DNA of 64,000 bases, taken from NCBI RefSeq assembly GCF_014696715.1, contig NZ_JACJQO010000022.1:1-64000 (forward strand), read 5' to 3'. A program made the position numbers and the translations under genes. Each line of letters opens with the position of its first letter. Position 1 is the stretch's first letter. The notes under the pieces were generated by a model. The model did no database searches. It had not been told where the DNA came from and was given only the letters and a program-made list of their open reading frames with translations. The stretch is from Pseudanabaena sp. FACHB-2040. Its GTDB lineage: Bacteria > Cyanobacteriota > Cyanobacteriia > Phormidesmidales > Phormidesmidaceae. Of the stretch, positions 58,991 to 64,000 are shown piece after piece.

Positions 58991-59377
58991 TCAATCGCCG
59001 CAGTAAGCGATCAGATCAATTTCCACGTCACCATAATCAGCCAGCGCCGTCACTCCCACCGTAGTGCGGCTAGGCATTCGCCCCGGGATGAAGTAGGACT
59101 GATAGGTTTGATTCACCACTTCGTAATAGCGAAAGTCAGTCACAAAAATGCGGGCCATCACCACCTTCTCCAGGCTGCTGCCTGCATGGCTTAGGACCAG
59201 CTTAAGATTTTCCATCACCTGCCGGGTCTGCTCCTCAAGGCTGCCCTTAATAACTTTTCCCGTTTCTGGGTCCTCAGCCAATTGCCCGGTAACAAACAAA
59301 AAATCTCCAGCTCGCACTGCATGAGAATAGGGAGCGACCGGAGGCAGTTGACCAGGAAGCGTAATAAATTCAATCAC
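58991..59377 (-). CDS. RidA/YjgF-family protein
   Basis: About 129 residues from a GTG at 59377 (VIEFITLPGQLPPVAPYSHAV); a TTG 21 bp upstream is the longest option. Family motifs are PYSHAVRAGDFLFVTGQLAEDPETG, ARIFVTDFRYYEVVNQTY and MPSRTTVGV, whose Arg corresponds to the carboxylate-binding Arg of RidA enamine/imine deaminases. RidA detoxifies 2-aminoacrylate and related imines. The GTG lies in one arm of an inverted repeat (59372-59380/59400-59408). Confidence 0.85.
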   Translation of the reverse strand: MIEFITLPGQLPPVAPYSHAVRAGDFLFVTGQLAEDPETGKVIKGSLEEQTRQVMENLKLVLSHAGSSLEKVVMARIFVTDFRYYEVVNQTYQSYFIPGRMPSRTTVGVTALADYGDVEIDLIAYCGD

Positions 59378-59408
59378 GAGAAGACTACAGAGAAACAATC
59401 TCGTGATT
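59372..59408 (-). promoter_or_regulatory. Inverted repeat covering the ridA-type start codon
   Basis: AATCACGAG (59372-59380) and CTCGTGATT (59400-59408) are perfect 9-bp inverted copies with a 19-nt loop. On the minus strand the second arm carries the proposed GTG start, so a folded leader could hide it. The alternative is a protein-binding site. Confidence 0.35.
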
Positions 59409-59452: not shown

Positions 59453-61282
59453 TTAGAAAATAATGTCTAGGCCCAGGGTCTTAAGGTCCACGGTGTAAAT
59501 TCGGCTGTAAGCTCCCTCTGAAACGGCCCACAGTAGCTGGGTTGCAGAGAGAGGCAACACATCTGCCGGCCGAGGCAATCTATCAATTTGCCCGATCACC
59601 TGCCCCTCTTCGCTAATCAGCCGCAGCTTGCCGTCTAGGCTGATAGCAGCATAACCAGCCCCAGTGTCGATCAGCCAGTGAGGCTGAATATCCAAGCGGT
59701 AGCGGCTGACTCGGAAGGGTTTAAAGTCAATCACTAGAACAACGTTGGGAAAATGCTGCTCTAAAGCTAGAAAACGGTAGGGTTTGGCAGCCGGTACTAA
59801 AGCTTGTAAAGCTGTATACAGAGATAAGGTGCCAACGGCGGTGCCCCGTCGGGTAAAACACTGAAAAGTGGTAGTTGCAGCTTGCGCGATCGCAACCAAA
59901 AAATGACGCGTATCCAACGCGCTCAAAGCCACAACCTGCCCTTCAGCCACCGGCATCGATACCCGCGTCAGGGGTAAGCTTTCAAGGCGGTGATCAGGCC
60001 CGGTTAGTCGTCGCAGCAGAAGCTGGCGCTCTGAGGGTGGGCTCTCTACATTGCAGGCGGCAAACCAGCGGCCATCTGGAGTGAGTGCGGCTTTGACTGG
60101 GTGGTCGAAACGTGCGATCGCAACGACTCCCTGCTTCATCGACAGCATATGGATTGAGTAATCCGTAAACAGACAGCCCCCGTAGGGCACTGCCTGAAAC
60201 TGCCGAATCGGCCAGGGCAGCGTCAAGCCTTGGGGCTGGCCGATTCGCTCCTGTCCCTGCCCCGTCCAGTGGTAAACCCAAACCCGGCGCTGGCAGCCTG
60301 TCACCAGCAGCGTTCCCTGAGTAACCTCCTGTCCTTGAACAGTCTGATGGGTTCTGGTCAGGGGAACGTTTACCCAGCCCACGACTTCAACCGGGTAAGG
60401 CAACGTGACAAAGGTTAGAGCAGGCGCAGACATCGGAGGCTCTAACGGCTGCCGCACCGAACTCGCTAACTGCTCCTGCGGCAGCTGATGCGCTACTGTT
60501 TCAACCGCTGCCAACATTTCAGCCGCCGTCTTATAGCGTTTAGCCAGGAGCTTTTGCAGGGCCTTACGCAGAATCTCATTCAGCGGTACCGGCAGGTGCT
60601 CGGGCAGAATCGCCCGCTGATTTAGGTGAGCCACCATCAACTCTGTCGGTGTTCCCGAGAAAGGCCGCTGTCCCGTCAGCAGCTCATAGAGAATAACGCC
60701 CACAGCATAGAGGTCCGAAGCTGCCGGGTGCTGATTGTAAAACCTTTCTGGAGCCATGTAGGCTGGCGATCCGGTGTTTCCCAGTTCTGCCTCACTGGCC
60801 TCTAGGCTAAGGCGGGCAATGCCAAAGTCCGAAATTTTGACCTGCCAGCCTCCCGGCACAATCGACAGCAGAATGTTCTCAGGCTTGATATCGCAGTGCA
60901 CAATGCCCTGGCGGTGGGCCTGATCAAGCGCCCGTAGAATATCGCTGACAAATCCCAGCACTTCTGCCAGGCTCAAGGGCACCTCATGCTCAATCAGAGC
61001 GCGCAAGGTGCCGCCCTCGCAGTAGTCCAGCACCAGTTGCCGCCCGGTTGCAGAGTGCTCTAGGGCCTGACAAGTGGCAATATTAGGGTGCTCCAGACTC
61101 AGGAGAAACCGCAGCTCTCGAAGAAACTTGTGAGTTGAAAAGCGATCGCGGTTGAGATCCTTAAGCGCTACCAAATCCCCCGTTTGGCGATGGATCGCAC
61201 AGTAGACCCGACCAAACTGCCCATGCCCTACTAGCCCAAGCAATCGATAGTGAGACCGCCGCAACCTCCGGGAAATAGCCAC
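59453..61282 (-). CDS. Hanks-type Ser/Thr protein kinase, SpkG-like by position
   Basis: The 609-residue protein has a complete kinase domain (about 12-270): glycine loop GHGQFGRVY, VALKDL (Lys), catalytic loop HCDIKPEN, DFGIARL, APE, then a TELMVAHLNQR region. There is no membrane helix. The C-terminal ~310 residues form repeated beta strands (TLLVTGCQRRVWVYHWTG, LLLRRLTG, LLWAVSEGAYSRIYTVDLKTLGL) suggestive of a beta-propeller or similar sensor. Its place directly behind a V4R gene (8 bp) corresponds to slr0152 (SpkG) in the Synechocystis Pap operon, although the genes in between are missing here. Confidence 0.88.
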   Translation of the reverse strand: MAISRRLRRSHYRLLGLVGHGQFGRVYCAIHRQTGDLVALKDLNRDRFSTHKFLRELRFLLSLEHPNIATCQALEHSATGRQLVLDYCEGGTLRALIEHEVPLSLAEVLGFVSDILRALDQAHRQGIVHCDIKPENILLSIVPGGWQVKISDFGIARLSLEASEAELGNTGSPAYMAPERFYNQHPAASDLYAVGVILYELLTGQRPFSGTPTELMVAHLNQRAILPEHLPVPLNEILRKALQKLLAKRYKTAAEMLAAVETVAHQLPQEQLASSVRQPLEPPMSAPALTFVTLPYPVEVVGWVNVPLTRTHQTVQGQEVTQGTLLVTGCQRRVWVYHWTGQGQERIGQPQGLTLPWPIRQFQAVPYGGCLFTDYSIHMLSMKQGVVAIARFDHPVKAALTPDGRWFAACNVESPPSERQLLLRRLTGPDHRLESLPLTRVSMPVAEGQVVALSALDTRHFLVAIAQAATTTFQCFTRRGTAVGTLSLYTALQALVPAAKPYRFLALEQHFPNVVLVIDFKPFRVSRYRLDIQPHWLIDTGAGYAAISLDGKLRLISEEGQVIGQIDRLPRPADVLPLSATQLLWAVSEGAYSRIYTVDLKTLGLDIIF

Positions 61283-61290
61283 AAGTCATG

Positions 61291-61953
61291 TCATTCCTGC
61301 TGCAGGAGCGCTTGCATAATAGTCTGATGGGGCTGGCTACCAGCTACCATGGCTTCAGCCTTTTCTAACCGCTTCGCTAGGCCTACAACAAAGCGGTTGC
61401 AGTCATCGCCTTTAGAATCGCAGCTGGTTTGCAGACACTTCAGCTCTCGGCCGGTCAATTGGCTCAGAAAAACCTCTACAATTCCCTGCTCCAAGGAGCC
61501 GGAGGGTTGCTGTCCTTTAGGGGCGTAGGCCGTAAAGGGGGAGTGCCAGATTTCTACCGTCAAAAAGCCCTGCTCTCGGTGAACCGTATCGAGATGAATT
61601 TGGCCCCAACCGTGGGTTCGCCAACATTGCTGGAGAGACTGCAGAAATTCGACCATTGACAGGTCAGCCAGTGGCTTGCCGTAGTAGTCGCTCAGCTCTT
61701 CACAAAACCGGGCATAGAAGTTTTTGCCCCACCAGCGGCCACAGTTATACAGCACCAGTTTGGAAGCATGCCCCGTTTCTTTTTCAAGCCCAGCGTAAAT
61801 TGCTTTGAGCAGCGGTTCAGGAATTGCCAGCAGACGATCGCCCCGGCGGTTTTCCAGCAGGCCCAGTTCGAGCGAACCACGAACGTAAAGATCGCTGGCA
61901 AAGTAGTTACCGGGCAAGCGGCTGTCAATCAGTAAATCAGCAACGGAAACCAT
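61291..61953 (-). CDS. V4R-domain protein, second copy (Slr0147-like by position)
   Basis: The 220-residue protein has an N-terminal region (LLIDSRLPGNYFASDLYVRGSLELGLLENRRGDRLLAIPEPL). It is followed by the V4R (4-vinyl reductase) domain ending in LKCLQTSCDSKGDDCNRFVVG, with the typical clustered Cys. V4R domains bind small hydrophobic ligands; the bacteriochlorophyll protein BchJ is a member. In Synechocystis the slr0144-slr0152 (Pap) operon encodes two V4R proteins needed for efficient photosystem II assembly. The gene is 42 bp behind the helical gene and 8 bp before the kinase. Confidence 0.85.
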   Translation of the reverse strand: MVSVADLLIDSRLPGNYFASDLYVRGSLELGLLENRRGDRLLAIPEPLLKAIYAGLEKETGHASKLVLYNCGRWWGKNFYARFCEELSDYYGKPLADLSMVEFLQSLQQCWRTHGWGQIHLDTVHREQGFLTVEIWHSPFTAYAPKGQQPSGSLEQGIVEVFLSQLTGRELKCLQTSCDSKGDDCNRFVVGLAKRLEKAEAMVAGSQPHQTIMQALLQQE

Positions 61954-61995
61954 GTTCTGACCACCTGTAGGGGGTTATGAAGGGCAAGGGAAATT

Positions 61996-62502
61996 TTAGA
62001 AACCGCTAGAGAAGCCAGCAGGAACACTTTCAACGGTTTCCCGCACATTCTTTAGCAGGGTCTGAGCTTTTTCGAGGCAGGGCTTGAGCAGGCTCATCTG
62101 CTGAGGCGGCAGAGTTTGGCTCAAGCGCTGGGCTAATACTTCAAATAGCTTTTGGTCAACCGCCTCTGTGTTGTAGGCCTTGACTATCTCTGGCAGCCAA
62201 CCCCGCAGCCGCTCTTCTACAAACACCTCGTCATCCATCAGCATGGCCATAGCGGCATAGCGCAAAACCAGTAGGCCGCTGCGAACGCTAAATTCTAAAG
62301 TGGCTTCGGGCACGTCCGGCATTTGCTGCTGCAGACTATCGGCTACTGGCTGCATCAGCGCCACTTCCTGATCTCGCAGCAGACGATAGGCTTTCATGCG
62401 CTCTGGAATAGAGCTAACATACTGACTCAAAACACTCAGTTCGTCGGCATTGAGATAGCGTTTTTCGGGCTCATCAAACAGGGCATCCAATTTAGGGTTC
62501 AT
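61996..62502 (-). CDS. Helical protein of the Pap-type cluster (Slr0146-like by position)
   Basis: The 168-residue protein is predicted nearly all-helical: LNADELSVLSQYVSSIPERMKAYRLLRDQEVALMQPVADSLQQQ, then FSVRSGLLVLRYAAMAMLMDDEVFVEERLRGWLPEIVKAYN and a final amphipathic helix. A distant resemblance to the phycobilisome/globin-like fold is possible but not demonstrated. There is no chromophore-attachment Cys; the only Cys is near residue 145 (LLKPCLEKAQTLL). It lies between the 103-residue protein and the second V4R gene, as slr0146 does in Synechocystis. Confidence 0.75.
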   Translation of the reverse strand: MNPKLDALFDEPEKRYLNADELSVLSQYVSSIPERMKAYRLLRDQEVALMQPVADSLQQQMPDVPEATLEFSVRSGLLVLRYAAMAMLMDDEVFVEERLRGWLPEIVKAYNTEAVDQKLFEVLAQRLSQTLPPQQMSLLKPCLEKAQTLLKNVRETVESVPAGFSSGF

Positions 62503-62682
62503 ATTGGGTCCTCAGGGGTTAGGAGTTAGCAGTAGAAGTTAGGAGTATTGGTTGGGTGTTCAATCGGGCGATGGGAATTGAACGTCAGTGAGTTTAGACG
62601 ATGCCCTTGCCTTAAAACGACCTGCTTGAAGGAAGTTACTCTGGTCTTTAAGAGACCTCGTAATAACCGTTAATAGCCTGAC

Positions 62683-62994
62683 TCAGAACAAGTCAGAGAA
62701 GAGATCGAGGGTGAGAGAATCACCGGCAGCTGCTGGCGCATCAGAAAGCATTTCAATCGGCGCAACTGGAGCTGCAATTACAGGCTGGCCTTCCCAGGGA
62801 AGGGTGCCAAAGAAGGTGCTTACCCGCATTGTCATGAGCGACTCACCCGATGGATCGTCGGTAGGCTCATGGCTGGCAACTTGGGGAGGCCGCCCATCCC
62901 AGGCCATCAATTCGAAGAAGGTGCGAACGGAGTCTTGCAGCCAGGGCTGAGACGCTGTCCCCGCTCCATTGGCTTTGGCGGTCAGATTAATCAT
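62683..62994 (-). CDS. 103-residue protein with internally repeated motif (Slr0145-like by position)
   Basis: The 103-residue, acidic protein starts at an ATGA overlap with the preceding V4R gene. It contains two copies of a short motif: VRTFFELMAWDGRPP (about 23-37) and VSTFFGTLPWEGQPV (about 58-72), i.e. V-x-TFF-x3-x-W-(D/E)-G-x-P. It ends with LTLDLFSDLF. No enzymatic domain or membrane helix is visible; short repeated aromatic motifs suggest a binding or adaptor protein. By position it corresponds to slr0145. Confidence 0.75.
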   Translation of the reverse strand: MINLTAKANGAGTASQPWLQDSVRTFFELMAWDGRPPQVASHEPTDDPSGESLMTMRVSTFFGTLPWEGQPVIAAPVAPIEMLSDAPAAAGDSLTLDLFSDLF

Positions 62995-63674
62995 GCGCCG
63001 CTCTCCCCAGATCGCAGCCGCTTCTCGATATCGCGGGCAGTAGCCCCTTCGTTCATCCAGAAGGCGGCTGCATCAATCCGCTCTTTGCCGCCTAGGAGAA
63101 ACTTGCAGTAGGTTTCCCCCATTGAGTAGCACTGAATTTCAATGCAGCTCAGCTGCTTGCGCACCATTTCTGTAAAGAAGCCCGCAAAGAGCCCAGCATA
63201 GAGGTGACAGACAGGCTTGCCGACATCCCCTAAGGTGCGAGCTACGGCGGAGTCGAAGAGGTTGATGAACATAAAGCCCTGCTTGCGATCGCTCATGTCC
63301 ACCTCCCACCGGCCCCAGCCCTGGGCAATGTACGGCCACCACCAAGTCTCTAGCAGAAACATCAGGTTGGCGCTGCGAGAACTCATGCCAAACTCTTTTT
63401 CAAACCAAGTTTGGAAAACAAGGGAATCGTATTTGCCCCACTCTATGCCGATGGAGTACATGATGGCGGCGGAAGATTCGCCAACCTCTTCTTCCAAACC
63501 TTCTAACAAACCAATGATAAAGTCTTCGCTGGTAAAGACATTGCGGCACTCATTCCAGTCAGTAATAATGCCCTGTTCAGGGTTGAACTGGAAGAAGTCC
63601 CGTAGCGCATAATGGTTATGCTTTTTGGGGTGCTTGTGGTGGAGACGGTGGGCTGTCTCGGTGGTCGTAACCAT
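62991..63674 (-). CDS. V4R-domain protein, first copy (Slr0144-like by position)
   Basis: About 227 residues from ATG 63674 (MVTTTETAHRLHHKHPKKHNHY); the open frame reaches a TTG at 63749, which is less likely. After a His/Lys-rich start comes FFQFNPEQGIITDWNECRNVF. The V4R core has IMYSIGIEWGKYDSLVFQTWFEKEFG and a C-terminal LSCIEIQCYSMGETYCKFLLGG with three Cys, as in slr0144 products. The V4R fold can bind hydrophobic or tetrapyrrole-like ligands. It is the promoter-proximal gene of the cluster and overlaps the next gene by ATGA. Confidence 0.85.
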   Translation of the reverse strand: MVTTTETAHRLHHKHPKKHNHYALRDFFQFNPEQGIITDWNECRNVFTSEDFIIGLLEGLEEEVGESSAAIMYSIGIEWGKYDSLVFQTWFEKEFGMSSRSANLMFLLETWWWPYIAQGWGRWEVDMSDRKQGFMFINLFDSAVARTLGDVGKPVCHLYAGLFAGFFTEMVRKQLSCIEIQCYSMGETYCKFLLGGKERIDAAAFWMNEGATARDIEKRLRSGESGA

Positions 63675-63920: not shown

Positions 63921-64000
63921 CTAATACCGAGGCACCGAACGATCAACCACAGCACTATAAGCATCAATACCACCAGCCAGGTTCTTCACGTTGGTAAAGC
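63921..64000 (-). CDS. Rhodanese-like domain protein, C-terminal end (partial)
   Basis: The last 26 codons of a minus-strand gene are present: FTNVKNLAGGIDAYSAVVDRSVPRY and a TAG stop. The NLAGGIDAYS...VDRSVPRY ending is typical of rhodanese-like domains in cyanobacteria, both as single proteins and at the end of MoeB-type adenylyltransferases. Which of the two applies cannot be seen because the rest lies outside the window. Confidence 0.65.
   Translation of the reverse strand, partial: FTNVKNLAGGIDAYSAVVDRSVPRY

Follow-up and report, generated by a model that had tools for sequence, protein, structure and literature searches.

For years the Pap operon of Synechocystis (slr0144–slr0152) has been associated with a photosystem phenotype, slower growth and lower photosystem II activity (PMC9145668), but a mechanism has been lacking. 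Two other groups of described systems resemble parts of it. First, the V4R/Fe–S/globin and pre-PcyA clusters (Rockwell 2023, PMC10151467) combine a V4R A/B pair with a phycobiliprotein-family globin and an Fe–S protein; the related clusters of other bacteria carry a heme oxygenase and a bilin reductase, and a kinase is not among their typical genes. Second, the sensor domains of PoxR, MopR and DmpR are V4R domains, and in DmpR the zinc ligands are Cys151, Glu172, Cys177 and Cys185 (PMC7264223).

The locus considered here lies in a window of 64,000 nucleotides (the whole stretch of DNA analysed) from Pseudanabaena sp. FACHB-2040. On its minus strand, from 63674 to 59453, five co-directional genes, V4Ra–S–H–V4Rb–K, stand between a rhodanese gene and a Rid-family gene, with all five open reading frames present:

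63921..64000, minus strand: 3' end of a rhodanese gene, which runs on to contig position 64277
62991..63674, minus strand: V4Ra (slr0144 type); PF02830, 2e-20
62683..62994, minus strand: S (slr0145 type), 103 aa; assigned by motif architecture and position, no Pfam match
61996..62502, minus strand: H (slr0146 type), a phycobiliprotein-family globin; PF00502, 1e-8
61291..61953, minus strand: V4Rb (slr0147 type); PF02830, 1e-11
59453..61282, minus strand: K (slr0152/SpkG type), a Hanks-type kinase; PF00069, 2e-49
58991..59398, minus strand: Rid-family protein (TIGR00004), 54 bp past the end of K

The reading frames of V4Ra and S share 4 bp; the spacing is 180 bp between S and H, 42 bp between H and V4Rb, and 8 bp between V4Rb and K, so that the close linkage of kinase and V4R gene described in the first-pass annotation is confirmed by the coordinates. 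Nine sampled loci, this one and eight others, have a co-directional Rid-family gene after K, and the rhodanese gene is the same-strand upstream neighbor in eight V4R loci. Past the end of the window, contig C22 64524–70123 holds, upstream of the cluster and in its orientation, the genes for ChlN, two small proteins, ChlL and light-dependent protochlorophyllide reductase (LPOR), an adjacency that among the sampled loci occurs in this genome only. A scan for promoters and terminators gave no signal above chance, and an Rfam search gave no match.

The five genes had been equated with slr0144, slr0145, slr0146, slr0147 and slr0152, in the same order and direction, and this assignment holds, for H through its clade; for S it is probable, from motif architecture and position. 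The Synechocystis reference loci are the Synechocystis-like locus L090 and locus L112 of Synechocystis salina, PCC 6803 being outside the 80 named loci, and slr names are therefore given by position. The C-terminal domain of the kinase is also common to both systems. The Synechocystis operon differs in having ferredoxin 5 (Fd5, slr0148), the slr0149-type globin (Hp), the slr0150 ferredoxin and the slr0151 TPR protein between V4Rb and K.

A V4R gene was present in 42 of the 59 genomes of relatives that were searched, and 133 loci were classified in all, comprising 40 neighborhoods of relatives and 93 further ones. The order of the V4Ra–S–H–V4Rb quartet is unchanged in nearly all of them, and the window locus is collinear; the same gene order in dozens of genomes cannot be due to chance. 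What follows the quartet varies. In the arrangement of this lineage, K comes directly after V4Rb (31 of the 40 relatives' loci), and thus the compact form is the ordinary state here and no striking reduction, in agreement with the reported variability of the cluster's neighbors (PMC10151467). At 50 of the 133 loci V4Rb is followed by Fd5, usually then by Hp and TPR, and in part with Fd150 and K; the hosts include Synechocystis, Crocosphaera, Thermosynechococcus and Xenococcus. A third arrangement, found in Microcoleus, Oscillatoria and Planktothrix, places a divergent Hp/Fd5 pair between V4Rb and K. The complete nine-gene order occurs in L090 (genome G096) and L110, and S. salina has eight of the nine genes, with S undetected at that locus. 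The window cluster is a real and widespread cyanobacterial one, presumably an operon, tied to photosystem assembly, in a common short form with the kinase as its fifth gene; a role in photosystem II for this particular copy is presumptive.

The genes that intervene in Synechocystis had been called absent, which proved right for some of them. Neither the slr0150-type ferredoxin nor the slr0151 gene lies between V4Rb and K, and a search of the whole genome, as had been proposed for homologues of slr0148–slr0151, found no slr0151 ortholog: the organism's own genome gave weak TPR matches only (best 5.8e-9), and in relatives the alignments fall, among the matches listed, in the repeat region. Hp was found neither at the window locus nor, as such, in the genome; in many relatives it sits upstream of V4Ra. 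The ferredoxin, however, is there. Fd5 is encoded on another contig, unlinked to the cluster (C5:51564–52046), flanked by hrcA and by a gene that also adjoins Fd5 in other genomes, which rules out loss of the ferredoxin. A gene missing from a cluster should be sought in the whole genome before its absence is read as loss. At the same place (G000:C5:51564-52939, locus L103) Fd5 is paired with an uncharacterized protein of 270 aa with no Pfam match, and this pair adjoins V4Ra in L048, L060, L062 and L064.

The first-pass annotation took the V4R pair and the kinase as the functional core, the V4R proteins sensing a pigment-like ligand and switching the kinase on. The position of K, directly after V4Rb in most loci of relatives and at or close to the cluster end in the other main arrangements, would fit this idea, as would the resemblance of V4R folds to small-molecule sensors. 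Co-inheritance, counted over raw genome numbers with kinship ignored, argues against it. Among 388 genomes, V4R occurs in 244 and Fd5 in 242; 240 have both and only six have one of the two (240 of 246 shared). The kinase occurs in 235, of which 223 also have V4R, leaving 21 genomes with V4R but no kinase and 12 with kinase but no V4R. The phi coefficient is accordingly 0.97 for the quartet and Fd5 versus 0.82 for the quartet and the kinase. All seven sampled genomes of family f16 have the quartet and the ferredoxin without the kinase, and nine V4R-less genomes in the same family as the window organism still match the kinase. Moreover, in three relatives that lack V4R and Fd5 (L225, L226 and L227) the rhodanese gene directly adjoins the kinase, at distances of 82 bp in L225 and 13 bp in L227, the pattern that a deletion of the quartet from between them would leave. 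Because the kinase is kept in relatives without V4R and Fd5, and is missing from lineages that have both, it is separable. Its looser co-occurrence and its adjacency to rhodanese together indicate that the co-inherited core is the V4R–globin quartet with ferredoxin 5, not V4R with kinase, and that the kinase and the TPR protein are more loosely attached. We therefore regard a V4R–kinase core as unlikely.

It strikes us as highly improbable that the cluster lacks a conserved function and is only a vestige, or a neutral leftover, of a pre-PcyA cluster acquired earlier. Its distribution is patchy (the 244 of 388 genomes above), and it has been described as non-essential and variable (PMC10151467). 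Nevertheless, V4Ra is 52–88% identical to the window protein across sampled loci, with invariant ligands, the quartet order is constant, co-inheritance is near-perfect, and a phenotype of the Synechocystis operon has already been reported (PMC9145668).

By its sequence, K is a Hanks-type kinase with intact catalytic residues: the catalytic Lys, Glu, HxD, Asn and DFG are invariant in 34 sequences, the catalytic motif being HCD, not HRD, in 85 of 91. Its kinase domain aligns to PknB (Z 30.8), and the whole protein aligns over its full length with the L090 and L112 kinases at 35–36% identity. The C-terminal domain is all-beta in the AF2 model (about 28 strands, pLDDT 88) and is probably a seven-bladed propeller; among the matches listed, which are kinase matches, none is to a solved fold for this domain.

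Two threonines of Fd5 divide along the presence of this kinase. At T18, which together with T72 we take to be a mapped phosphosite, Thr occurs in 100 of 103 rows from other loci (kinase-positive or of status not tested) versus 0 of 15 rows from kinase-less genomes, these 15 representing three deep lineages and including duplicate loci of one genome; for T72 the corresponding counts are 99 of 103 and 3 of 15. T45, T67, S78, T124 and S138 show no split by kinase presence. Six genomes in which the kinase was not found, some of them incomplete, retain both threonines. When the tree is computed with these columns left out, about five changes map to each site, and two f11 genomes (L060 and L220; G045 and G091) have D/E at position 18 even though a strongly diverged kinase adjoins V4Rb. 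The few changes per site, the small number of kinase-less deep lineages and this f11 case weaken a phosphosite reading. It gains support from Synechocystis, where, as PMC11863333 relays from Angeleri 2018, Fd5 phosphorylation needs SpkG and is lost in the spkG mutant.

These observations also bear on another possibility, that the quartet and Fd5 form a tetrapyrrole-processing or chaperone module outside signaling, the kinase being merely co-transcribed and acting on other targets in salt or lipid responses. Such a module would account for the tighter bond of the quartet to Fd5 than to the kinase, for related bacterial clusters with heme oxygenase and bilin reductase in which no kinase is listed as typical (PMC10151467), and for the salt and fatty-acid phenotypes of spkG mutants. 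It would leave unexplained why T18 and T72 follow the kinase and why the spkG mutant loses Fd5 phosphorylation (PMC11863333). We consider it doubtful, about as much so as the V4R–kinase core.

We favor, with moderate confidence, a tetrapyrrole-binding V4R–globin module coupled to ferredoxin 5, with an SpkG-type kinase controlling the ferredoxin. V4Ra and V4Rb would most likely form an asymmetric pair, possibly a heterodimer, of one metal-competent and one metal-less subunit. Together with H, which has a globin fold, and S, with its multivalent motifs, this pair may bind or hand over a tetrapyrrole of bilin or chlorophyll type; Fd5, encoded elsewhere, would be the electron-transfer partner. The kinase would phosphorylate Fd5, probably at T18 and T72, and so adjust electron transfer in response to light, redox or salt stress. 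The control of Fd5 by the kinase is suggested by the threonine pattern and the SpkG dependence in Synechocystis, and the tetrapyrrole by the sensor-like V4R fold, the bilin-binding relatives of H and the chlL/chlN/LPOR genes upstream, a neighborhood that fits such a ligand without proving it. To this extent the pigment-like ligand of the first-pass annotation is plausible.

The metal-site asymmetry is plain in the alignments. In V4Ra the ligand set C156/E179/C182/C190 is invariant (144 of 144), whereas in V4Rb the site is degenerate, with Q179 in 150 and N190 in 151 of 155; three cysteines at spacings of 26 and 8 with a nearby Glu occur in V4Ra and not in V4Rb. The AF2 model of V4Ra matches PoxR, MopR and DmpR and, at lower rank, TRAPP subunits and BcsD. 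With these sensor domains V4Ra shares the fold and the Cys-26-Cys-8-Cys spacing of metal ligands, although its Glu is offset from the published DmpR numbering. Unlike them, the window proteins are separate and small, lack AAA+ and DNA-binding domains, and include a metal-less paralogue as partner. A V4Rb profile found no convincing match among solved structures (best BcsD, E 0.26). Telling the core of quartet and Fd5 from the looser kinase and TPR protein, and naming residues (the V4Ra metal site, the S motifs, Fd5 T18 and T72), makes the biochemistry directly testable.

In S, the motif V-x-x-F-F-x4-W-[DE]-G occurs twice and the C-terminus carries LTLDxFSDLF. In a motif analysis of 137 homologues, the copy number of V-x-x-FF-x4-W-x-G varies, up to four with the pattern used. 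In 59 genomes, 35 of 37 motif matches lie inside S genes, which rules out a common genomic motif. A direct BLAST comparison of S with the protein at the slr0145 position in L090 is not significant; the two are linked via intermediates and have the tandem motif, C-terminus, position and overlap in common. The tandem FF–W motifs invite an extension of our preferred reading, in which S strings together V4Ra/V4Rb and globin units as a tetrapyrrole-responsive scaffold whose ligand state gates SpkG phosphorylation of Fd5 at T18 and T72. This stays speculative, and we would not expect it to hold.

H forms one clade with the protein at the slr0146 position in L090 (support 99; naming by position), and Hp is separate in the tree, which rules out H as the slr0149-type globin. 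The relatives of the H family are bilin-binding globins (PMC10151467). The tetrapyrrole reading is weakened at this point, as H lacks the CxRD chromophore motif: the window protein has neither its bilin-attaching Cys nor its Asp, and across the family these occur in 10 and 8 of 144. In Hp, Asp occurs in 122 of 122 and Cys in 69 of 122. The window cluster thus departs from the pre-PcyA clusters in the missing CxRD, in having no heme oxygenase or bilin reductase, and in its attached kinase; its Fe–S protein is encoded elsewhere in the genome. Separately, two lone PF00502 proteins (G000:C10:153231-153647 and C5:739993-740418), which belong neither with the antenna subunits nor with the globins of the cluster, resemble another group and carry a Cys-x-x-Asp motif (CQYD and CQRD).
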